From contig NZ_LR026983.1 in the NCBI RefSeq assembly GCF_900604345.1, positions 558,001 through 622,000 of the forward strand: a DNA stretch of 64,000 bases, given 5' to 3'. Shown piece by piece: positions 18,491-44,532 of this stretch (the stretch's first letter is position 1; every line of letters begins with the position of its first letter). The notes below the pieces were generated by a model, which did not search any database, was not told where the DNA came from, and worked only from the letters and a program-made list of their open reading frames with translations. The DNA is from Maliibacterium massiliense. GTDB taxonomy: Bacteria > Bacillota > Clostridia > Christensenellales > Maliibacteriaceae. The position numbers and the translations under genes were made by a program.

Positions 18491-18566
18491 TGGCTCCTCC
18501 AGTTGGACTCGAACCAACGACACCGCGGTTAACAGCCGCGTGCTCTACCGGCTGAGCTATGGAGGA
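18491..18566 (-). tRNA. tRNA-Asn (anticodon GTT)
   Basis: A 76-base tRNA including an encoded 3' CCA. The acceptor strands TCCTCCA and TGGAGGA pair, the D-loop has AGCTCAGCCGGTAGAGC, the anticodon loop is CTGTTAA giving anticodon GTT, and the T-loop is GGTTCGAGTCC. Located eight bases or so after the 5S gene and before the operon terminator, so it is processed from the rRNA transcript. Confidence 0.97.
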
Positions 18567-18575
18567 ATATTAGAA

Positions 18576-18691
18576 TCCGGCGACGTCCTATCCTCCCGGG
18601 CCGTTACCAGCCAAGTACTTTCGGCGCTAAAGGGCTTAACTGCTGTGTTCGGTATGGGAACAGGTGGATCCCCTTCGCTATCGCCACCGGA
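18576..18691 (-). rRNA. rrf: 5S ribosomal RNA
   Basis: About 116 bases; the ends TCCGGTGGCGA and TCGCCGGA pair to form helix I, and the internal CCATACCGAACACAG and AAGTACTTGGCTGG are the standard 5S elements. Ends are set from helix I pairing. Confidence 0.95.
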
Positions 18692-18843
18692 AATTTCTAT
18701 GCAATTCTTCTTCGCGTATCTTCGCTTCTTCCCTTCCCACGAAAACACCCGCAACCGCATAATGTCCTAGCCTCTCCACAAGAGCTTCGCTTTATTCCCC
18801 GTCAACTACTTCTTCCTCAAACAATCCTTCTCTTTCTTCGCTT

Positions 18844-23583
<4,740 letters not shown>

Positions 23584-33211: not shown

Positions 33212-33445
33212 GATCATGACAATACATATAAGGTGAATGGGGCGCGTACAACGCGATGCGCCCGGATAAGATAAAGCAAGATTCTATCCCGCCTGGGCGC
33301 CGCGCGCCTTTGGCAGCGCCCCTTGGACGGTATCCCCACCCGTTTTTGCCAGATGGCGCGCGCCAATTGCATCCACAGCACCGCGCTCCGGTGCGCGGGC
33401 GCGTCACTTTGCGGAAAATACAAGGTAGATGGAGGCATACGCAGC

Positions 33446-35560
33446 ATGGCTAACAATTACGGTCCCTTGATCGGCGATATCGACGCCTATCTCTTTTTTG
33501 AGGGCACCCATCGCTACGCATACAGGTTTATGGGCGCGCACCCGCTGACAGATGGCGCGTGGCATTTCGCGCTCTGGGCGCCGCACGCGCAGGAGGTGAG
33601 CGTGGTGGGCGATTTCAACGGCTGGGACGCGCTGAGCAATCCGCTTGCGCGCGTGCATGAAAACGGCCTGTGGGTGGGTACGGTGGACAATCTCTCGCCC
33701 GGGGCGTATTACCAGTACGCCATCCAGACGCCTGCGGGCAACCGCATCTTCAAATCCGATCCCTACGCGTTTTCCTCTGCCGTGCGGCCCAACACCGCCT
33801 CGCGCCTGGTTGCGCAGGAGCCCTACCTTTGGCAGGACGCGGCCTGGATCGCGCAGCGCAGAACGCGCAACCATCGTCTCAGTCCCATGTCCATTTACGA
33901 GATCCATCTAGGTTCGTGGCGGCGCGGCGCGCTCAACGAGTTTTTAAACTACCGCGAGATCGCCGACGCCCTTGTGCCCTACCTTGTGGAGATGCACTAT
34001 ACGCACGTGGAGCTGATGCCGGTGATGGAGCACCCGCTGGACGACTCTTGGGGCTATCAGGTCACAGGCTTTTACGCGGTCAATTCCCGCCACGGCTCGC
34101 CCGATGACTTCCGTTACCTGGTCGACAAGCTACACCAGGCGGGCATCAGCGTGCTGCTGGACTGGGTGCCCGCCCACTTCTGCAAGGACGCGCACGGCCT
34201 GCGCCATTTTGACGGTGTGCCCACCTACGAGTACCAGGACGCCATCCGCGGCGAGCATCCGCACTGGGGTACCAGCGTCTTTGACTACGGCAAGGCCGAG
34301 GTAGTCAGCTTCCTGATGTCCGCAGCCCTCTACTGGATCGACGCATTCCACGTCGACGGGCTGCGCTTTGACGCGGTCTCCAGCATGCTGTATCTGGACT
34401 ACGGCCGCGACGGCGGCGAGTGGCTGCCCAACAAGGAGGGCGGCCGCGAAAACTTCGAGGCCATCGAGCTGTTGCGCAACATCAACGACGCGGTGCATCT
34501 GGAGTTCCCCGGCTGCGTTACCATCGCCGAGGAATCCACCGCCTGGCCACTGGTCACCCAGCCGCCCGAGGCGGGGGGGCTGGGCTTTGACTTCAAGTGG
34601 GACATGGGCTGGATGAACGACACCCTGGCCTACATGAAGGACGACCCCATCTACCACCAATACCACCAGGATATGCTGACATTCTCCATGATGTATGCCT
34701 ACAACGAGAACTTTATCCTGCCGCTGTCCCACGACGAGGTGGTGCACGGCAAAAAGACGTTGCTGGACAAGATGCCGGGCGACTACTGGGCAAAGTTTGC
34801 CTCCCTGCGCCTGCTGCTCGGCTATCAGTACGCCCATCCAGGCAAAAAGCTCACCTTTATGGGCACGGAGATCGCGCCATTTCAGGAGTGGCGGTTCTAC
34901 GAAGGGCTGGAATGGCATCTTTTAGAATATGACATGCATGCCCATACACAAAAGTACATGCGCGAGCTCAACGCCTTCTACAGGGCGCATCCCGCCCTGT
35001 GGCAGCGCGACGACGGCTGGCACGGCTTTACGTGGCTCAACCCCAACGACAGCGAGCATTCGGTTATCTCCTTTATCCGCGCGGCCGATGAAGAGGAGCT
35101 GGTGGTGGTGTGCAACTTTGTGCCCGTCACCTGGGAGAAGTACCGCATCGCGCTGCCCGCCGCGGGACACCTGTTTGAGGTTTTCAACAGCGACAACGGC
35201 TTTTACGGCGGCCACTGCCACACCAACGCGGCGGATATCCCCACCGAGGAAGTGCCGCTGATGAACCAAGCGTATTCCGCCTGCATCTGCGCGCCCGCGC
35301 TGGGCATGGCGATCTTCCAGTACAAGCGCGACCCTGTCAAACCCAAACGCGGCGCGCGCACGCGTACGGGCGCCAAATCCGCGGCGGCGAAACCCGCCGC
35401 CAAAAGGGCCGCCCCGCGTAAAAGCGCCGACGCCGCAACAAAAACAGCTGCAAAGGCCGCTGCCCGCAAGCGGAGCGCACCAGCAAAACGGCAGCCGGCT
35501 GTGAAAGAAACGAAGGATACAAAATCCACGAGGCAAGGGAGTGTAAAAGACCATGACTGA
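33446..35560 (+). CDS. glgB: 1,4-alpha-glucan branching enzyme with Lys/Ala-rich C-terminal tail
   Basis: A 704-residue GH13 enzyme that creates alpha-1,6 branches in glycogen. The CBM48-like N-terminal domain (about 35-115) is followed by the catalytic barrel: [15 protein letters not shown] (about 203-217), nucleophile D309 in [11 protein letters not shown], acid/base E362 in AEEST, and the [10 protein letters not shown] motif near 430. The enzyme proper ends near residue 630 with [11 protein letters not shown]. The last 73 residues (632-704) are a highly basic, disordered Lys/Ala/Arg/Pro tail (for example [18 protein letters not shown]), not part of the family and similar to histone H1 tails. 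Start ATG at 33446 has GGAGG ten bases upstream. It overlaps glgC by eight bases. Confidence 0.95.
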
Positions 35561-36779
35561 GAAAAAATGCATCGCCATGTTGCTGGCGGGCGGCCAGGGA
35601 AGCCGCCTGGGCATCCTCACACGCAATATGGCAAAGCCCGCTGTGCCCTTTGGCGGAAAGTACCGCATCATCGACTTTACGCTGTCGAACTGCACCAACT
35701 CGGACATCGACACCGTGGGCGTGCTGACGCAGTACCAGCCCCTGGAGCTGAACGCCTATATCGCCGGCGGACAGCCGTGGGACCTTGACCGCAACACGGG
35801 CGGCGTGTTCATCCTTCCCCCCTACATCCAGGGCAAAACGGGCGAATGGTACAAGGGCACAGCCAACGCCATTTACCAGAACATCGCCTTTATCCAGCAG
35901 TACAACCCGCAGTACGTGCTGGTGCTCTCGGGCGACCATATCTATACCATGGACTACAGCCGCATGCTCGACGCGCACATCAAAAACAACGCGGACGCCA
36001 CCATTGCGGTCATCGAGGTACCCTGGGAAGACGCCAGCCGCTTCGGCATTATGAACACCAACGAGGACGGCTCCATCTACGAGTTCGACGAAAAACCCAA
36101 AAAGCCCAAGTCCAACACCGCCTCGATGGGCGTGTACATCTTCTCTTGGGACGTGCTGCGCAGCTACCTGATCGCCGATGAGGCCAACCCTGCCTCCAAA
36201 AACGATTTCGGCATGAACATCATTCCGGCCATGCTCGCAGACGGCAAGCGCATGTTCGCCTATCCCTTCCGCGGCTACTGGAAGGACGTGGGCACCATCG
36301 AAAGCCTGTGGCAGGCAAACATGGACCTGCTGGCCTCTCCCCCGCTATTGGACATGCACGACCGGCGCTTCCGCGTCTACGCGCGCAACACCGGCCAGCC
36401 GCCCCACTACGTGGGCAAGAGCGGGCGGGTGGACACCAGCCTGCTTACCGAGGGCTCCATCGTGCACGGGTACGTCAAACACAGCGTGCTGTTCTCCGGC
36501 GTGCGCGTGGCGCGCGAGGCGGAGGTGGTGGACTGTGTGGTCATGCCCGGCGCGCAGATCGGCCGAGGCGCCAAGATATACCGCGCCATCATCGGCTGCG
36601 ACGTGTGCATCGGCGAAGGCGCCATCGTGGGCGAGGACTACGCCGGCCTGGATTCCGGCAGTGAGCGCCCCATCACTGTGGTGGGCAACGGCACGTGCAT
36701 CCCCCCCAAGGCCTCGGTTGCGCCGGGCGCCATGGTCTGCGATGAAGATTTTCCGAGCGAGGAGGTGGCTTCCAAATGA
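35553..36779 (+). CDS. glgC: Glucose-1-phosphate adenylyltransferase, catalytic subunit
   Basis: A 408-residue enzyme making ADP-glucose from ATP and glucose-1-phosphate, the committed step of glycogen synthesis. The nucleotide loop [13 protein letters not shown] (about 10-22), [20 protein letters not shown] and [10 protein letters not shown] are all present; the C-terminal third is a left-handed beta helix ([28 protein letters not shown]). Start overlaps the end of glgB, and its stop overlaps glgD by ATGA, indicating tight coupling. AAGGGAGTG in the glgB tail serves as ribosome binding site. Confidence 0.96.
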
Positions 36780-37894
36780 TGAAGGACGCCCTAGGCATTA
36801 TTTATACCGGTGAAAACGATCACTATCTCAAGGAAATCACCCAGAGCCGCAGCATCGCCGCGGTGCCGCTGTGGGGTCGCTACCGCCTCATTGATTTTCT
36901 GCTCTCCAACCTGGTCAACTCCGGCATCGGAAACGTGGGCATCATCGCCCAGAAGAACTACCATTCCCTCATGGACCACGTGGGCGGCGGCCGCGAATGG
37001 GACTTAAACCGCAAGCGCGACGGCCTGTTCATCCTCCCCCCCTACGTCACGCGCGAGAACCCCGGCGCCTACAACGGCGTGGTGGACGCCCTGCGCGGCA
37101 TCATGCCCTACCTGCGCCGCAGCGCGCAGCGCTACGTGGTATTCTGCAACAGCGACGTGGTCTACAAAACCACCTTTGACGACATGATGGCCTACCACCT
37201 GTCCAAAAAGGCGGATATCACCCTGATGTACTACCACTGCGACGACGTATCGGCTCGATCCAACCCCATCATACTGGACGTGGCGCGCGGCGGACGGGTG
37301 CGCGGCATCGAGATCGACCCGCTCAATCCCTCCTGCAACCGCGTGATGCTGGGCGCCTTTATCATTGAAAAAACGCTGCTGGAATACCTGGTGGACGCGG
37401 CCGCCGCCACCGGCACCACGGACTTTGTGCGCGGCGTGCTGATGCCCAACCTGGACCGCCTGCGCATCTACGGCTGCCGTTTCAACGGCTATGTGGCCTG
37501 CATGGATTCGGTGGACAGCTACTTCAAGCACAGCCTGGATTTGCTCGACGAAAAGGTGCAGGAGGAGCTCTTCTACAAGCACGGTACCGTCTTTACCAAG
37601 GTGCGCGACGAGGTGCCCGCCCATTACCTGCCCGGTGGCGACGCAGTCAACTCCTCGGTGGCGGACGGTTGCGTCATCCAGGGGCACGTGGAAAACTGCG
37701 TGCTGTTCCGCGGCGTGTGCGTGGGCGCGGGGGCGGTCATCAAAAACAGCATCCTGTTCCAGGATTCCGAGGTGCAGGCGGGCGCCGTGCTGGAGAACGT
37801 CATACTGGACAAAGAGGTGATGGTGCGTCAGAACCGGCGCCTCATCGGTCAGGATACCTACCCGATTGTCATTGCGAAAGGAGCTGTGATCTAA
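36776..37894 (+). CDS. glgD: GlgD, non-catalytic partner of glucose-1-phosphate adenylyltransferase
   Basis: A 372-residue GlgC homologue. It starts [14 protein letters not shown] and keeps [21 protein letters not shown], but the GGxGxRL nucleotide loop of GlgC is missing, as in all GlgD proteins. GlgD pairs with GlgC in Bacillota and raises its activity. The C-terminal beta helix ([20 protein letters not shown]) is present. Starts within the glgC stop codon; glgA follows one base after its stop. Confidence 0.94.
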
Positions 37895-37895
37895 C

Positions 37896-39812
37896 GTGGC
37901 TACCACCCAGAAGACCCCTGCCAGGAAACCAGCGTCCTCGCCCTCTCGCCCCAAGACAAAATCCGCAAAAAAACCGGCGGCAGGCGTAAAGGCCGCCGTG
38001 GAAGAATCGGCCGCACAGGCCGCGCCTGACGCGGCCAAACCCGCCGCGGCGAAGGAACGGACGGCCAAGGTGCCCGCCGCAAAGCCCGCGCCCAAAAGGC
38101 AGGTTGCCAGAGCGACGCAGAAGCCCGCCGCGAAGAAGCCCACAGCCAAACCTGCGCCCCAGTCCGCGCCGCAGACGGTCGCTGTGAAGCCTGCCGAAAA
38201 GGCGCCCGCGCGGTCCGCCGAACCCTCCGCACAGAACGCCGCCCCCAAGCCTGCGGCCCCTGTGGTCAAACCCGCGGCCGAAAAGCCGGTGGAACAAGCT
38301 GCGGCAAAGCCCGCGGAAGAGGCCAGCAAAAAAGCGGCCCCAAAGCCCGTCGAGCGGCCCGCGCCGGAAAAGCCCGCGCCGCTGCGCATCCTGCACGTGG
38401 CAAGCGAGGCGGAACCTTTTATCAAGACGGGCGGCCTTGCCGACGTGCTGGGCGCCCTGCCCCGCCAGCAGGCCCGCATGGGCAACGAGGTGGCGGTCAT
38501 GCTGCCCAAGTACCACGACATCCCGCAGATGTACCGCGACCAGATGCAGCATGTAATGGACTTCACCGTGCAGCTTGGCTGGCGCACGCAGTACTGCGGC
38601 GTGGAGATGCTGCGCTATGAGGATGTCACCTACTACTTTATCGACAACGAGTTCTACTTCGGCTCGCCCGGCGTCTACACAAGCGGTGAGTTTGAGGCCG
38701 AGCGTTTCTCCTTCTTCTGCCGCGGCGTGCTTGAGGCCATGGGCCGCATGGGCTACTACCCCAACGTGCTGCACTGCCACGACTGGCAGAGCGGTATGGT
38801 GCCCTTCATGCTGCGCAGCCAGTACTCCTTCAACCCGGCTTACGCGGCCATCCGCTGCGTCTTTACCATCCACAACCTGCGCTACCAGGGCGTGTTTAAC
38901 TGGCCCATGCTGGAGGGGATGCTCTTTATCGACCCGCGCTACCGCAACCCCAACGACCTGGAGTTCCATACCGGCTGCAGCTTTATGAAGGGGGGCATCG
39001 TGTTTTCGGATATCGTCACCACAGTCAGCCCCACCTATGCCCAGGAGATCCAGGGCACGTTCTTCGGTGAAAAGCTCGAGGGGCTGCTGTGCGCGCGCAG
39101 CGACCGGCTCTTCGGGGTGCTCAACGGCATCGACACCGAGGCCTACGACCCCGCGCGCGACAGCCTGATCCCGCAGCAGTACAGCCGCAGCGACAAAAGC
39201 GGCAAAGCGGTTTGCAAGCGCGCGCTGCAGCATGAGCTGGGCCTGGCGGTGCGCCCAGAGGTGCCCATCGTGGCAATGATCACCCGCCTGACCGACCAAA
39301 AGGGCCTGGATCTGCTGGAAAACGTGCTGCGCGAGCTGCTCAACGATGATCTGCAGCTGGTAGTGCTGGGCAGCGGCGAGCAGAAATACGTGGATATGCT
39401 TGGCTGGGCCAGCCATGCCTACCCGGGCAAGGTTGCCTGCCGCATCGAGATGAACAACCCGCTCGCCCACCGCATCTACGCCGGCGCGGACATGTTTTTG
39501 ATGCCCTCGCTCTTTGAGCCCTGCGGCCTGTCGCAGATGATCGCCATGCGCTATGGCACGCTGCCCATCGTGCGCGAGACGGGCGGCCTGCGCGATACCG
39601 TGCAGCCCTACAACGAGTTTGAAAACACCGGCAACGGCTTCTCCTTCGGCGCCTACAACGCCCCGGATATGCTCTACACCATCCGGCGCGCGGAGCGCTT
39701 CTTCTACAATGATAAGCAGGCCTGGGAGGGCCTGATGGACCGCGCCATGGCGGGCGACTATACCTGGGAACGCTCCGCGGCGCGGTATCTCGAACTGTAC
39801 CGCCAGGCATAA
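37896..39812 (+). CDS. glgA: Glycogen synthase with Lys/Ala/Pro-rich N-terminal tail
   Basis: A 638-residue ADP-glucose-dependent GT5 synthase. The enzyme starts near residue 163 (LRILHVASEAEPFIKTGGLADV, with the ADP-glucose-binding KTGGLADV) and runs through HCHDWQSGMVPF, VSPTYAQEI, NGIDTEAYDP and the C-terminal MPSLFEPCGLSQM, all as in the family. Residues 1-162 are an extra low-complexity segment of Lys, Ala, Pro and some Glu (repeated KPA and AKP units). It is translated: the GTG at 37896 follows AAGGAGCTGTGATCTAAC and no other start with a ribosome binding site exists before residue 163. The tail resembles the C-terminal tail of GlgB from the same operon. A long open frame on the opposite strand is a composition artefact. 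Confidence 0.95.
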   Translation: MATTQKTPARKPASSPSRPKTKSAKKPAAGVKAAVEESAAQAAPDAAKPAAAKERTAKVPAAKPAPKRQVARATQKPAAKKPTAKPAPQSAPQTVAVKPAEKAPARSAEPSAQNAAPKPAAPVVKPAAEKPVEQAAAKPAEEASKKAAPKPVERPAPEKPAPLRILHVASEAEPFIKTGGLADVLGALPRQQARMGNEVAVMLPKYHDIPQMYRDQMQHVMDFTVQLGWRTQYCGVEMLRYEDVTYYFIDNEFYFGSPGVYTSGEFEAERFSFFCRGVLEAMGRMGYYPNVLHCHDWQSGMVPFMLRSQYSFNPAYAAIRCVFTIHNLRYQGVFNWPMLEGMLFIDPRYRNPNDLEFHTGCSFMKGGIVFSDIVTTVSPTYAQEIQGTFFGEKLEGLLCARSDRLFGVLNGIDTEAYDPARDSLIPQQYSRSDKSGKAVCKRALQHELGLAVRPEVPIVAMITRLTDQKGLDLLENVLRELLNDDLQLVVLGSGEQKYVDMLGWASHAYPGKVACRIEMNNPLAHRIYAGADMFLMPSLFEPCGLSQMIAMRYGTLPIVRETGGLRDTVQPYNEFENTGNGFSFGAYNAPDMLYTIRRAERFFYNDKQAWEGLMDRAMAGDYTWERSAARYLELYRQA

Positions 39813-39849
39813 GATGGCATGGGACCGATCTCGCATGCGCAAAGCTGCA

Positions 39850-39897
39850 ATGCGCCCGCACCTTGTATGATGCATAGGTTTGCGGGCGCATGTTGTT
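39850..39897 (+). terminator. Terminator of glgBCDA
   Basis: ATGCGCCCGCACCT pairs with AGGTTTGCGGGCGCAT (11 base pairs plus four inner pairs), followed by GTTGTTT. It separates glgA from glgP. Confidence 0.75.
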
Positions 39898-39973
39898 TCA
39901 CTGCGGGGTATGTTTGCGCAGGCGCGTGCGCAAACTAACAGCTGCGCTTATTCCCCCTTGCCAGGCGGGTTCA

Positions 39974-40003
39974 TTGACAGCTGTGCGCCGCATCTGTTAC
40001 CAT
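39974..40003 (+). promoter_or_regulatory. Promoter of glgP
   Basis: TTGACA (39974-39979), 18-base spacer, TACCAT (39998-40003), about 45 bases before the AAAGGAGG of glgP. Glycogen breakdown can thus be controlled separately from synthesis. Confidence 0.65.
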
Positions 40004-40055
40004 AAAATTATTCGTTGACTTCATTGCTTTTGTTTATTAAAGGAGGTTCCCCCCC

Positions 40056-42539
40056 ATGGCGGTATCTCATCAGGCCTATGATAAGGATCTGGCTGCGCGC
40101 AAGCAGCGCATCATCGACAGCATCGCCGAAAAGCTGCGCCTGCACTTTGGCCGCACGTTTGAAGAGGCGTCCGAGACGCAGCTCTACCAGGCGGTGGCGC
40201 TCACCGTGCGCGACGCCATTATGGAGCGCTGGACGGCCTCGCGCCGGGCGCGCGTCCAGCAGCAGCTAAAGCGTGTATACTATCTCTCTGTGGAGTTTCT
40301 GGTGGGGCGTTCCCTCACCAACAACATCATCAATTTGCTGCAGGACGACGCCTACCGCGCCGCGCTCAGGGAGCTGAACGTGGACCTTTCCCAGCTGGAG
40401 GAAGTGGAGCCCGAGGCAGCGCTTGGCAACGGCGGCCTGGGCCGCCTGGCCGCCTGCTTTATGGACTCGCTGGCCACCCTCGCCCTGCCCGCCATGGGCT
40501 GCGGCATCCGCTACGAGTACGGCCTCTTTAAGCAGTACATTATCGGTGGCGCGCAGGTGGAGCAGCCCGACGTGTGGCTGGAGGACGGCAATATCTGGGA
40601 GGTGCCCACCTGGGACGACCAGATGGAAGTGCGTTTCGGCGGACGCGTGGTGGAGGACTGGAGCCAGGGGTACCTGAACATCCGCTACGAGGATACCACC
40701 ACCGTGCAGGCCGTGCCCTACGATATGCCCATCATCGGCTATGACAGCGACGTGGCGCTGTCGCTGCGGTTGTGGAGCGCCAAATCCCCCACCCGCATCG
40801 ACATGGCCTCCTTTTCGCGCGGCGAGTACGCCAAGGCCATGGAGCAGAAGGAACTGGCCGAGGTCATCTCCAAGGTACTTTATCCGGAGGATAACCACCG
40901 CGAGGGCAAGATGCTGCGCTTAAAGCAGCACTACTTCTTTACCTCGGCCACGGTGCAGTACATCATCAAAGACTTTAAAAAGCGCTATCCGGATTTGGCC
41001 ATGACCCAGCTGGGCGAGAAGGTGGTCATCCACATCAACGACACCCATCCTGCGCTGGCCATCCCCGAGCTGATGCGCATTTTGATGGATCAAGAGCACC
41101 TCTCCTTTGAGGACGCTTGGAACACCACGCGCGCCACCTTTGCCTACACCAACCACACCGTCATGAGCGAGGCACTGGAAAAATGGCCCGTGGCCATCTA
41201 CCGCGAGCTGCTGCCCCGCATCTACGATATTACCGTAGCGCTTAACGAGCACTACTGTCAGCAGCTCTCCGCCGCCTTCCCCGGGCAATGGCAGCGCATC
41301 TCGGATATGGCGATCATCGCCTACGACCAGGTGCGCATGGCCAATCTGGCCATCGCGCTGTCCTTCAGCGTCAACGGCGTCTCCCAGCAGCACGCGCAGA
41401 TTCTCAAAAGCGACGTGTTTGCCAACTTCAACGCCCTGGAGCCGGATAAGTTCATCGGCATCACCAACGGCATCACCTACCGCCGCTGGCTGATGAAGGC
41501 CAACCCCGGCCTCGCCCGCCTGATCACCGATGCCATCGGGCCTAAGTGGAAGAAGGATTTGGCCTATCTGGAGGACCTCGCCCCCTATGCGGACGACGCC
41601 GCCTTCCGCGAGAAGTTTGCCGCGGTCAAGCTGCAGAACAAGCAGCGCATGGCCCAGTGGATCCGGCGCAATATGGAGATCGACGTAGACCCCGGCGCCA
41701 TCTTCGACTGCCAGGCCAAGCGCCTGCACGAGTATAAGCGCCAGCTGCTAAACGTGCTGCGCATCCTGCACCTGTACAACACGCTGCTTGCGCACCCAAA
41801 CCTTGATATGCCCAAGCGCGTCTTTCTCTTTGCGGCCAAGGCGTCCCCGGGCTACACCCGCGCCAAGCTCATCATCCGCCTGATCAACGCTGCGGCGGAC
41901 CTCATCAACAAAACCCCGCAGGTACGCGATAAAATCCAGGTGGTCTTTCTGCCCAACTACTGCGTGTCGCTTGCCGAGGTGCTCATCCCCTCGGCGGACA
42001 TCAGCGAGCAGATATCCACCGCAGGCAAGGAGGCCTCCGGCACCGGCAACATGAAGTTTATGCTAAACGGTGCGCTCACGCTGGGCACGCTGGACGGCGC
42101 AAACGTGGAGATCGCCCAGCAGGTGGGCATGGATAACATCTACATCTTCGGCGGCACCGCCGAGCAGAACGCGGATCTCTACCGCACCGGCGCCTATCAC
42201 GCAAGCGACCTGTATATGCAGAACCCCCAGCTCAAGGCCGCGGTGGACCTGCTCATCGACGAGCGCATGCCGGGCGACCGGCACATGCAGTTTGCCGACC
42301 TGTACCAGTCCCTGCTTTCGGGCGATCCGGGCAATATCGCCGATCCCTACCTGCTACTAAACGACTTTGCCTCGTATCTGCTCGCCTCCGAAAAGACGGA
42401 CCGCGATTATGTCAAGCCCGATATCTGGTGGCGCAAGGCGGTGCTCAACAGTGCCAAAGCGGGCGTTTTCTCTTCAGACCGCACCATCGGCGAGTACAAC
42501 GCGCGCATCTGGCACCTCTCCCCCATACGGATGAAGTAA
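40056..42539 (+). CDS. glgP: Glycogen/starch phosphorylase
   Basis: An 827-residue GT35 enzyme releasing glucose-1-phosphate from alpha-1,4-glucan ends. Family landmarks: YYLSVEFLVGRSL near 75, EPEAALGNGGLGRLAACF near 122-139, VVIHINDTHPALAIPELMR, FAYTNHTVMSEALEKWP, and EASGTGNMKFMLNG with the PLP-binding lysine K667. Length is typical of bacterial MalP/GlgP. Strong AAAGGAGG ribosome binding site. The GH13 hydrolase follows 88 bases downstream. Confidence 0.97.
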   Translation: MAVSHQAYDKDLAARKQRIIDSIAEKLRLHFGRTFEEASETQLYQAVALTVRDAIMERWTASRRARVQQQLKRVYYLSVEFLVGRSLTNNIINLLQDDAYRAALRELNVDLSQLEEVEPEAALGNGGLGRLAACFMDSLATLALPAMGCGIRYEYGLFKQYIIGGAQVEQPDVWLEDGNIWEVPTWDDQMEVRFGGRVVEDWSQGYLNIRYEDTTTVQAVPYDMPIIGYDSDVALSLRLWSAKSPTRIDMASFSRGEYAKAMEQKELAEVISKVLYPEDNHREGKMLRLKQHYFFTSATVQYIIKDFKKRYPDLAMTQLGEKVVIHINDTHPALAIPELMRILMDQEHLSFEDAWNTTRATFAYTNHTVMSEALEKWPVAIYRELLPRIYDITVALNEHYCQQLSAAFPGQWQRISDMAIIAYDQVRMANLAIALSFSVNGVSQQHAQILKSDVFANFNALEPDKFIGITNGITYRRWLMKANPGLARLITDAIGPKWKKDLAYLEDLAPYADDAAFREKFAAVKLQNKQRMAQWIRRNMEIDVDPGAIFDCQAKRLHEYKRQLLNVLRILHLYNTLLAHPNLDMPKRVFLFAAKASPGYTRAKLIIRLINAAADLINKTPQVRDKIQVVFLPNYCVSLAEVLIPSADISEQISTAGKEASGTGNMKFMLNGALTLGTLDGANVEIAQQVGMDNIYIFGGTAEQNADLYRTGAYHASDLYMQNPQLKAAVDLLIDERMPGDRHMQFADLYQSLLSGDPGNIADPYLLLNDFASYLLASEKTDRDYVKPDIWWRKAVLNSAKAGVFSSDRTIGEYNARIWHLSPIRMK

Positions 42540-42555
42540 ACGTAGCCGATTCATG

Positions 42556-42597
42556 GAAAGCTCGGGCTTGCCCTCTTGCGGCGGCCGGGCTTTCTTT
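42556..42597 (+). terminator. Weak hairpin between glgP and the GH13 gene
   Basis: GAAAGCTCGG (42556-42565) pairs with CCGGGCTTTC (42585-42594, one G-T pair) over a long loop, followed by TTT. Possibly a partial terminator or attenuator rather than a full stop. Confidence 0.4.
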
Positions 42598-42627
42598 GCA
42601 CCTGCAACATTAAAGGAGCGACGTCGC

Positions 42628-44532
42628 ATGGACATCCCGCTGTATCACCATTCGCATATGCCGCTGTTTCGCACCCCCTTTGGCGCGGTGCCGCAGCACA
42701 CCAGCATCACGCTGCGCCTGGGCGTGGACCCGCATCTTCCCTGCAAGGCGCCCCATCTGCACCTGTTTCGAGATGGCACTACCCACATGCTGCCCATGAC
42801 GCGCACCGCCCTTGCCTATAACGGGTACGACCTCTACGAGGTCACCATCAGGGGCCAGTACATCGGCGCGCTGTGGTACTGCTTCTGCGTGCCTTTGCGT
42901 GACGGGGGCGCCCTCTACTGGGGCGATAATCCCAAGCGCGTGGGCGGCGAGGGCTGGATGTATTACGAGGCGCCCCCCGCCTACCTCATTACCGTGTACG
43001 CGCAAGATTTTTCCGTGCCCGCGTGGTTCCGCGACAAGGTGATGTACCAGATCTTTCCCGATCGCTTCTTCCGCAGCGCGGCGCGCACGTACCCACAAAA
43101 GCCGCGCATGCACGCCGACTGGCAGGAGGAGGTGGCCTACAGCCCGCTGCCCGACCAGGATCACTACTGCGCGGACGACTTTTTCGGCGGCAACCTGGCG
43201 GGCATCGCGGAGAAGCTTCCCTACCTCAAGAGCCTGGGCGTGTCGGTACTCTACCTCAACCCTATCTTTCTGTCCATCTCCAACCACCGCTACAACACCG
43301 CCGATTACGAGACCATCGACCCGCTGCTGGGCACGGCGGACGACCTGCGCGACCTGTGCGAAAAGGCCCGCGCGCACGGCATCTCCATCCTGCTTGACGG
43401 CGTGTTCTCCCACACAGGGGCGATCAGTCGCTACTTCAACGCGGATGGGCGCTTTGACGAAGTGGGCGCGGCGCAGTCGCCCGATTCCCCCTACGCACAG
43501 TGGTACACCTTCATCGACTGGCCGGAGCGCTACGAATGCTGGTGGGGCGATACATCGCTGCCCAACACGCGGGAGGACAGCATGTCCTACATGGACTACA
43601 TGCTGGGGAAAAACGGCATCGTGCGCAAGTGGCTGCGCCTGGGCGCGCGGGGCTGGCGGCTGGACGTGGCCGACGAGCTGCCCGACGTGTTTTTAAACGA
43701 ACTGCACGCCGCCTGCAAGCGGGAGCGGGCCGACGCGGTGGTGCTGGGCGAGGTGTGGGAGGACGCGGCCACCAAAACGAGCTACGGGCACGTGCGCCAC
43801 TACGTGCTGGGCAACCAGCTGGAGAGCGTGATGAACTATCCCTTGCGCAATGTGCTGATCAACTACTTTACCTACAAGGCATCGCCCGAGGATGTGGCCC
43901 AGCAAGTGATGGTGCTCAAGGAGCACTACCCCCGCGACTTTTTCCACAGCCTGATGAACATGACGGGCTCACACGATGTGCCGCGGCTGCTCTCGCTGCT
44001 CTCGGACGTGCCGCAGCCGGGCTACGGCACGCCGCGGGAGCACATCCGGCTGATGGAGCCCACCGACCGCCAGAAGACACTGGGACGCGCGCGCGTGCGC
44101 CTGATGGCAAGCGTGCTTTTTACGCTGCCGGGCAACCCCTGCATCTACTACGGCGACGAGGCGGGCCTGACGGGCATGACTGACCCCTTCTGCCGGCGCA
44201 CCTTCCCCTGGGGACGGGAGGATGAAGACCTCCAGGCCCATTTTCGGCATCTGGGCCAGCTACATAACGCCCATGGCGCGCTGTGCGGCGGGGACGTCAC
44301 CTTTGCGCAGGCGGGCGAGGACATCCTATGCTACCTGCGAAGCGACGCCTCCTCCCACATCGTTGTGGCCGTCAACCGCAGCGAGGACGCGCGCGTCATG
44401 GACGCGTTTTTGCCCAATCTGCCCGCCGATTGCGTGTTGCATGACCTGTACGGCGGGCCCACGCAGGCGCTATCCGGGCAGCGCCTGCGCGCCACGCTTC
44501 CCCCCTTAACCGCACTGATACTCGCTTTGTAG
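42628..44532 (+). CDS. GH13 alpha-glucan hydrolase (neopullulanase/cyclomaltodextrinase-like)
   Basis: A 634-residue cytoplasmic enzyme without signal peptide. An N-terminal beta-sandwich domain (about 1-125) precedes the barrel, which starts near WFRDKVMYQIFPDRF. Conserved region II is GWRLDVADEL with nucleophile D346, region III VVLGEVWED with acid/base E375, region IV GSHDVPR with D450. The VMYQIFPDRF and ADDFFGGNLAGI signatures place it among neopullulanase, cyclomaltodextrinase or maltogenic amylase-like enzymes; it probably trims limit dextrins or debranches glycogen after GlgP. The ATG at 42628 has AAAGGAG ten bases upstream; an earlier in-frame start lies in the hairpin and is rejected. 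Confidence 0.9.
   Translation: MDIPLYHHSHMPLFRTPFGAVPQHTSITLRLGVDPHLPCKAPHLHLFRDGTTHMLPMTRTALAYNGYDLYEVTIRGQYIGALWYCFCVPLRDGGALYWGDNPKRVGGEGWMYYEAPPAYLITVYAQDFSVPAWFRDKVMYQIFPDRFFRSAARTYPQKPRMHADWQEEVAYSPLPDQDHYCADDFFGGNLAGIAEKLPYLKSLGVSVLYLNPIFLSISNHRYNTADYETIDPLLGTADDLRDLCEKARAHGISILLDGVFSHTGAISRYFNADGRFDEVGAAQSPDSPYAQWYTFIDWPERYECWWGDTSLPNTREDSMSYMDYMLGKNGIVRKWLRLGARGWRLDVADELPDVFLNELHAACKRERADAVVLGEVWEDAATKTSYGHVRHYVLGNQLESVMNYPLRNVLINYFTYKASPEDVAQQVMVLKEHYPRDFFHSLMNMTGSHDVPRLLSLLSDVPQPGYGTPREHIRLMEPTDRQKTLGRARVRLMASVLFTLPGNPCIYYGDEAGLTGMTDPFCRRTFPWGREDEDLQAHFRHLGQLHNAHGALCGGDVTFAQAGEDILCYLRSDASSHIVVAVNRSEDARVMDAFLPNLPADCVLHDLYGGPTQALSGQRLRATLPPLTALILAL

Follow-up and report, generated by a model that had tools for sequence, protein, structure and literature searches.

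Lysine-rich, H1-like tails on the glycogen synthase and branching enzyme of Maliibacterium massiliense and related Clostridia suggest a tie between the growing glycogen store and a negatively charged polymer

The glg operon and its two tailed enzymes

The window analysed here, a stretch of 64,000 nucleotides from Maliibacterium massiliense (contig NZ_LR026983.1, positions 558,001 to 622,000), contains a glycogen operon in which the branching enzyme GlgB and the glycogen synthase GlgA each bear a histone H1-like tail. We conclude that such tails are real and under selection, and that they form polycationic, predicted-disordered extensions of glycogen-building enzymes. Within the operon they are confined, in the loci examined, to GlgA and sometimes GlgB. 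Our analysis suggests that the GlgA tails of this bacterium and many of its relatives anchor glycogen under construction to DNA or to some other polyanion. The operon is made up as follows.

33443-44532, plus strand: operon glgB-glgC-glgD-glgA-glgP-GH13
33443..35560 including stop, plus strand: glgB, branching enzyme (CBM48, GH13, all-beta C domain), with GGAGG upstream of the ATG at 33443
35339..35557, plus strand: C-terminal H1-like tail of GlgB, 73 amino acids (aa), net charge +18, directly after the terminal beta domain
35553..36779, plus strand: glgC, without tail
36776..37894, plus strand: glgD, without tail
37877..37883, plus strand: AAAGGAG, ribosome-binding-like, ahead of the glgA GTG start
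37896..39812 including stop, plus strand: glgA, glycogen synthase of family GT5, 638 aa, GTG start at 37896
37896..38381, plus strand: N-terminal H1-like tail of GlgA, 162 aa, net charge +21, predicted disordered
38382..39809, plus strand: catalytic core of GlgA, 476 aa, net charge -11, fold of E. coli GlgA (2QZS)
40056..42539, plus strand: glgP, without tail
42553..44532, plus strand: GH13 family enzyme, without tail

The reading frames confirm both tails where the first-pass annotation had placed them, in frame with the ribosome-binding motifs listed above, and also its statement that GlgC, GlgD, GlgP and the GH13 enzyme of the window have none. The GlgB tail is rich in alanine, lysine and arginine (14 Lys, 9 Arg and 27% Ala over 73 codons), and the open frame runs through it to the stop codon ending at 35560; upstream, the mechanical open reading frame (ORF) of glgB opens earlier, at TTG 33323. 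Over its 162 codons the GlgA tail holds 26 Lys, 7 Arg, 30% Ala and 19% Pro, and the word KPA occurs in it 11 times. That the tails lie outside the enzyme families is borne out by Pfam, whose domains cover only the enzyme parts: Glyco_transf_5 begins at residue 164 of GlgA (PF08323, 277 bits, which confirms GT5), and PF02922, PF00128 and PF02806 are above cut-off in GlgB, where the domains end by residue 627. The phasin family matched neither protein, the remainder of each chain being a GT5 or GH13 enzyme. In an AlphaFold2 model of GlgA built with 57 aligned sequences, the block-mean predicted local distance difference test score (pLDDT) was 33-46 over residues 1-150, 61 over residues 151-160 and 83-98 beyond, which predicts a disordered tail, and the core matched 2QZS in Foldseek with a TMt of 0.91, consistent with a GT-B fold; a model made without alignment had a mean pLDDT of 36 and was of no use. 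By composition, charge and pLDDT, the chain thus appears to carry the disordered, Lys/Ala/Pro-rich, net-positive tail that marks proteins of the PhaF and AlgP kind.

We defined a tail as 50 residues with at least 7 Lys, at least 8 Lys+Arg, at least 15 Ala+Pro and at most 4 of FILMWYCH, and since this definition contains Lys and Ala/Pro content, the composition of called tails is partly given by construction. Across 864 kb, or 36% of the genome (the window and 40 stretches of 20 kb; 421+366 = 787 greedily chosen longest ORFs), it was passed only by GlgA, GlgB, the internal linker of FtsZ and one overlapping ORF of 93 aa; GlgA was found through the full ORF list, the greedy set having chosen a longer antisense ORF instead. 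A second copy of the GlgA tail elsewhere in the genome was not found at E<=1. In loci centred on GlgA or GlgB of other genomes (1.59 Mb, 1272 ORFs), the strict criterion picked out 12 GlgA, 1 GlgB and no neighbouring gene, and in L172-L231 (392 ORFs) it picked out no other gene, just a frame shadow of one GlgA. Away from the operon, the tailed genomes G319 (156 ORFs) and G441 (95 ORFs) gave no match, and G396 gave one (15 ORFs), a stretch within an ABC transporter.

The dull alternative raised at first pass, low-complexity expansion in a GC-rich genome, is rejected: such segments are rare in the rest of the genome, and tails occur in genomes with a GC fraction of 0.42-0.67. Nor did we meet the marks of replication slippage in the window, where neither tail contains DNA tandem repeats, codons are mixed and such segments are rare outside the Glg genes; some tails elsewhere (L060, L194) are clearly repetitive as peptides. 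A frame error is an unlikely source of the GlgB tail, because the other two forward frames contain stops, relatives have similar GlgB tails, and third-position changes dominate in the GlgB tails of family f74 (differences by codon position of 18/15/34 and 14/8/40). The window's GlgB tail prefers AAA over AAG (11:3), the opposite of the GlgB core (3:13), and its GC content at third codon positions is 0.59 as against 0.83 in the core; given this codon and GC shift, it was perhaps acquired recently.

Distribution, turnover and constraint

Among the window and loci L032-L131 and L172-L231, 54 of 158 full-length GlgA proteins are tailed, 24 at the N-terminus and 30 at the C-terminus. The other enzymes of the same loci give 7 of 93 for GlgB, 0 of 112 for GlgC, 0 of 115 for GlgD, 0 of 15 for full-length GlgP and 0 of 4 for the GH13 enzyme; additional loci add 13 of 38 GlgA, 3 of 23 GlgB and none of 28 GlgC or 28 GlgD. 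Pooled over the loci examined, 10 of 116 GlgB, 0 of 140 GlgC and 0 of 143 GlgD are tailed. Such prevalences are inflated, many loci having been picked for long reading frames (long or middling ones in L212-L231 and most of L252-L270); L032-L051 were taken from the nearest relatives, L172-L211 are mostly best GlgA matches, and the named and other sets overlap in part (the cores of L061 and L208 are identical), so that a locus is not always a separate species.

Samples that were not picked by tail also contain tailed enzymes. Among 80 named loci, 7 are tailed (L054, L055, L056, L057, L060, L062 and L067), all from assemblies titled Clostridia, Clostridiales, Bacillota or Christensenellaceae, and no tail was flagged in the Paenibacillus, Lachnospiraceae and Clostridium records of this set. 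A class-wide sample of 157 genomes, 115 of them with GlgA, yielded 12 matches with an open frame of at least 570 aa, and 11 of these, from five family codes, have H1-like tails (the window, five of f42, three of f74, G396 and G429; the exception is G456); in this sample the 11 non-window matches of that length and 9 others were read, and the remainder were judged by frame length alone. In a further set, the best 30 matches, 10 long tails were recognised by eye, the weak cases L024 and L026 being excluded from the count. Lys-rich GlgA tails occur across the order, which from the assembly titles is probably Christensenellales, and in further families of the class, probably Clostridia, at either terminus. 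In the set of 54, net charge is positive in 50 (median +11), the median count of aromatic residues is 0, and Lys makes up 8-30% (median 22%) at GC 0.42-0.67, declining as GC rises (rho -0.43); for L047, L225 and L226 the N-terminal reading was trimmed to a likely ATG before composition was computed. Three further GlgA proteins (L227, L229 and L230) have N-terminal open extensions of 285-457 aa with a different, Asn/Lys/Glu-rich make-up.

A tree of 95 GlgA cores requires at least 16 changes among N-terminal tail, C-terminal tail and none, with 8 for N-terminal and 8 for C-terminal tails taken alone; the tree is a quick one with several long branches, L039 and most far rows having been omitted. 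In the window's own family, the window and G001 have the N-terminal tail and G002 has none. By these counts the tails have been gained, lost or switched between ends many times. L055 and L178 have near-identical DNA over the 3' half of glgA, the tail and the downstream sequence, with mostly 60-95% identity per 100 bases upstream; this marks a recombination tract, and a 27-nt in-frame indel lies within the otherwise identical tail DNA.

In 18 chosen GlgA pairs, the ratio of nonsynonymous to synonymous substitution rates (dN/dS) of the tails was 0.12-0.54 in 8, the tails being identical in 1 and synonymous-saturated in 9, and that of the cores was 0.01-0.20. For the tails of L213 and L217, dN/dS was 0.13 in frame as compared to 1.43 and 1.14 out of frame, with 17/19/59 differences by codon position; for L046 and L047, it was 0.24 as compared to 0.87 and 1.88, on just 13 differences. 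This in-frame constraint indicates that the tail peptides are translated and constrained, more loosely than the cores. Among the relatives compared, most tail changes fall at synonymous sites, so that the protein is constrained while length and order drift.

The same data bear on the possibility that the tails have no specific role and are merely tolerated soluble disordered ends, Lys/Ala/Pro-rich because other compositions would be harmful (an entropic bristle, an aid to solubility or near-neutral drift). Such a view accords with the differences in tail presence and end between sisters and with the fast turnover of sequence and length, of which the indel between L055 and L178 is an example. 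We nevertheless regard it as distinctly unlikely, given that tails sit on GlgA and GlgB and on none of the pooled GlgC and GlgD proteins, that similar segments are rare elsewhere in the genome, that dN/dS is below 1 in all 8 computable pairs and that 11 of the 12 long extensions in the class-wide sample are of one type.

GlgA tails with and without a tailed GlgB

The first-pass annotation described the two tails of the window as matching and proposed that they hold GlgA and GlgB together. Both are indeed polycationic and of similar rough composition, and this part of the description stands; beyond it they have little in common, as for the GlgB tail its own GlgA tail comes only 14th of 54 when ranked by shared 4-mers and 13th when ranked by composition. 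In the five other double-tailed loci compared in this way, the own GlgA tail ranked 1 of 54 by 4-mers in L057 and L177, 2 in L220, 12 in L222 and 41 in L189 (with the GlgB tail of L220 and L222 cut to its end part for this ranking), and by composition it ranked 3rd to 6th in all five. Across the 94 loci with both genes, GlgB is tailed in 9 of 54 loci with a GlgA tail and in 1 of 40 without (Fisher p=0.04, a value that ignores kinship, three of the nine double-tailed loci belonging to one genus); before the last loci were joined, the counts were 6 of 44 and 1 of 27 (p=0.24). The sole GlgB tail without a GlgA tail is that of L037 (genome G029).

The expectation that the tails co-occur in relatives thus holds in one direction, as 9 of 10 GlgB tails accompany a GlgA tail, and fails in the other, as 45 of 54 tailed GlgAs stand beside a tail-less GlgB. 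One of these is the nearest tailed relative, G001 of the same family. The pairing of GlgB tails with GlgA tails, the top 4-mer ranks in L057, L177 and L220 and the composition ranks, which run from 3rd to 13th of 54 over the six pairs, the window being last, would suit a co-evolving pair. Set against this are the poor 4-mer ranks of the window, L222 and L189, the frequent absence of the GlgB tail, the tail-less GlgA of G002, and charge itself: both tails are cationic and should therefore repel each other. We consider it very improbable that the tails hold the two enzymes to each other. The recurrent feature is instead the GlgA tail, with GlgB as an occasional second carrier of similar make-up.

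What the tails may bind

Positively charged tails might instead find their partner in the enzymes themselves. In this case the tails would form a condensate or coat on the granule surface, where they gather several glycogen enzymes through many weak contacts with one another's acidic cores, with RNA or with metabolites, or space particles as a brush, with no link to the nucleoid. The cores of the window are acidic (net charges of GlgB -35, GlgA -11, GlgC -8 and GlgP -9), and in L212-L217 and L219 the tails are rich in K/E/A and contain 3-7% proline, L213 having a weak apolipoprotein- and senescence-like signal. GlgP, too, has Lys/Ala-rich N-terminal extensions in L228 (where it is partial) and L294, in genomes whose GlgA is tailed. 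On the other hand, 50 of 54 tails are net positive, and the presence of a GlgA tail goes with no greater acidity of GlgB, GlgC or GlgD (p=0.66, 0.57 and 0.62). The narrower idea that the tail targets acidic GlgB cores was rejected on the same comparison, median GlgB charge being -19 with or without a GlgA tail. A condensate or coat is in our judgement unlikely, though still a serious contender.

Polyphosphate is a further candidate, and a tail that binds it would link glycogen building to the phosphate and energy store. Genome G477, in which GlgA and GlgB are both tailed, encodes a PPK1 with an N-terminal H1-like tail of about 80 residues (L329:5895-8354, minus strand; 28.2 bits against HC2, below the cut-off of 40), and long PPK1 frames occur in G451 and G525 of the same genus, judged by frame length alone, as well as in G396, G476 and G025. 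In three genomes of one genus, no more than about 6-8 kb separates ppk1 from glgA (G113:C92, G301:C29 and G128:C48; the G128 match is reported with two internal stop codons), and AlgP, an H1-like protein, associates with polyphosphate granules. PPK1 is encoded by 19 of the 32 tailed genomes and by 9 of the 25 without tails (our own split, significance not computed), and PPK2 by 13 of the 32. However, neither kinase was seen in 11 of the 32, among them one genome with a completeness of only 51%, which unless genes were missed excludes polyphosphate as a general partner, and the PPK1 frame of the window genome has an ordinary 714 aa, as in most tailed relatives searched (686-747 aa; 772 in G292). 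Every cell contains nucleic acid, which fits all cases as polyphosphate does not, and we consider polyphosphate coupling quite improbable. Small stand-alone KPAAKK-rich proteins whose short C-terminal parts resemble each other are encoded at L329:14917-15432 (minus strand, G477) and L312:16371-16856 (plus strand); the former matches DUF6465 and HC2, both below cut-off, and these are possible nucleoid proteins.

PhaF, PhaM and AlgP are reported to use histone-like or H1-like DNA-binding parts to position granules, and their loss disturbs spacing (PMC13052382, PMC9239181, PMC3574117). PhaF of Pseudomonas, which binds DNA and spreads polyhydroxyalkanoate (PHA) granules along the nucleoid, resembles the tailed enzymes in that a storage-granule protein bears a histone-like, Lys-bearing disordered C-terminal domain (PMC13052382, PMC3574117); unlike them, it is no enzyme but a phasin whose helical domain binds PHA, whereas here the tail sits on a glycogen polymerase or branching enzyme, at either end and with lower net charge. 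AlgP of Pseudomonas aeruginosa has a KPAA-type disordered tail that is required for the spacing of polyphosphate granules (PMC9239181), but AlgP is a protein in its own right, helical in its N-terminal domain and with a net charge of +55, while GlgA outside its tail is a GT5 enzyme. PhaM of Cupriavidus necator has a histone-like DNA-binding end, forms complexes with the polyhydroxybutyrate synthase PhaC and ties granules to the nucleoid (PMC13052382); it is a separate synthase-activating protein, whereas here synthase and tail are one chain. Tail-less bacterial GlgA shares the catalytic core, fold and pathway, but the solved E. coli and Agrobacterium sequences of 477-485 aa leave no room for a tail. 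HC2-like and DUF6465 proteins share the KPAAKK-type runs and have stand-alone copies in G525 and G477; they differ in being small and stand-alone, with profile matches below cut-off. By this analogy, the tails would be a variant of the known H1-like granule tethers, outside the phasin and AlgP families.

We propose that the GlgA tail acts as a tether of low specificity for polyanions, with nucleoid DNA (or nascent RNA) as the most likely target, a reading which we judge to be a real possibility, somewhat short of an even chance. The folded part of GlgA or GlgB would bind the growing glucan, and the tail would bind the cellular polyanion through many weak lysine contacts. With a DNA tether on every active polymerase, the polymerase itself would become the tether, and since a floppy tether needs no docking geometry, either end could carry it. 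Nascent glycogen particles might then stay small, dispersed and shared among daughter cells rather than massing at the old pole. That there is a positioning problem to solve is indicated by E. coli, in which GlgA-GFP (green fluorescent protein fusion) is reported to collect at old poles and polar glycogen in a csrA mutant to exclude the chromosome (PMC4836754). The wider proposal, that Clostridia repeatedly turned storage-polymer polymerases (GlgA, at times GlgB, and PPK in one genome) into self-tethering enzymes by means of an H1-like tail at either end, such that the nascent particle is nucleoid-bound by its own synthase and needs no separate phasin or ParA-type protein, is more tentative and on balance doubtful.

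Several observations weigh against the tether. Its two grounds are tail composition and the analogy with PhaF, PhaM and AlgP, and the charge reported for AlgP (+55, PMC9239181) and PhaF (+35) is above that of the tails described here, whose charge per residue is modest (median +0.12), with two tails negative and two at zero. Profiles of linker histone H1 and of chlamydial HC2 (PF07382) matched neither window GlgA nor window GlgB, L040 or L213 at E<=0.1. Lys and Glu occur side by side in many tails (L040, L212-L217 and L219 among them); L040 and L213 appear by eye helical or similar to late embryogenesis abundant (LEA) proteins or apolipoproteins rather than DNA-binding, and L213 has weak Apolipoprotein and Senescence matches under cut-off. 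These mixed tails are the chief reason for caution, since they may point to a role as coat or condensate instead. The tail is also dispensable, as it is absent from the close relative G002 and replaced in L199 and L200, sisters of L046 and L047, by a shorter extension failing the criterion. As to constraint, the dN/dS values come from other loci, the window tails being too distant from those of any relative for the ratio to be computed, and low-complexity alignment can inflate identity. Finally, off-operon matches on non-Glg proteins occur in G231 (2 in 153 ORFs and 200 kb, a 4Fe-4S protein and a small protein), G525 (3 in 168 ORFs and 220 kb, other proteins of the G525 and G477 family also bearing H1-like segments) and G477 (2 in 37 ORFs and 40 kb, PPK1 and the stand-alone H1-like protein), so that specificity to Glg enzymes is not absolute; H1-like segments are rare overall, though more frequent in the family that includes G525 and G477.

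Among the literature matches listed, judged by title and start of abstract and with subscription journals thinly covered, no published description of such tails on GlgA, GlgB or PPK was found. In the text available to us, a review of prokaryotic glucan enzymes (PMC11046441) has no occurrence of 'disordered' or 'histone', and the word glycogen is absent from the positioning review (PMC13052382) and from the AlgP paper (PMC9239181). Positioning proteins have been described for PHA and polyphosphate granules, and a convergent GlgA tail would hint at a positioning system for glycogen. The tails also offer a natural case in which evolution has added a disordered region to either end of one enzyme and kept mainly its composition.

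Two smaller observations remain. In relatives without an H1-like tail (L042, L061, L185 and L208), GlgA ends in the peptide EPNPVVVDI, and variants (GPNPVVVDI, NPVVIDI) occur in L180, L188 and L190, the H1-like tail of L057 coming after one of them; judged by sequence, this C-terminus looks like a short linear motif. Elsewhere in the window, an rRNA operon (16S, 23S, 5S) with tRNA-Asn lies at 18491-23583 on the minus strand.

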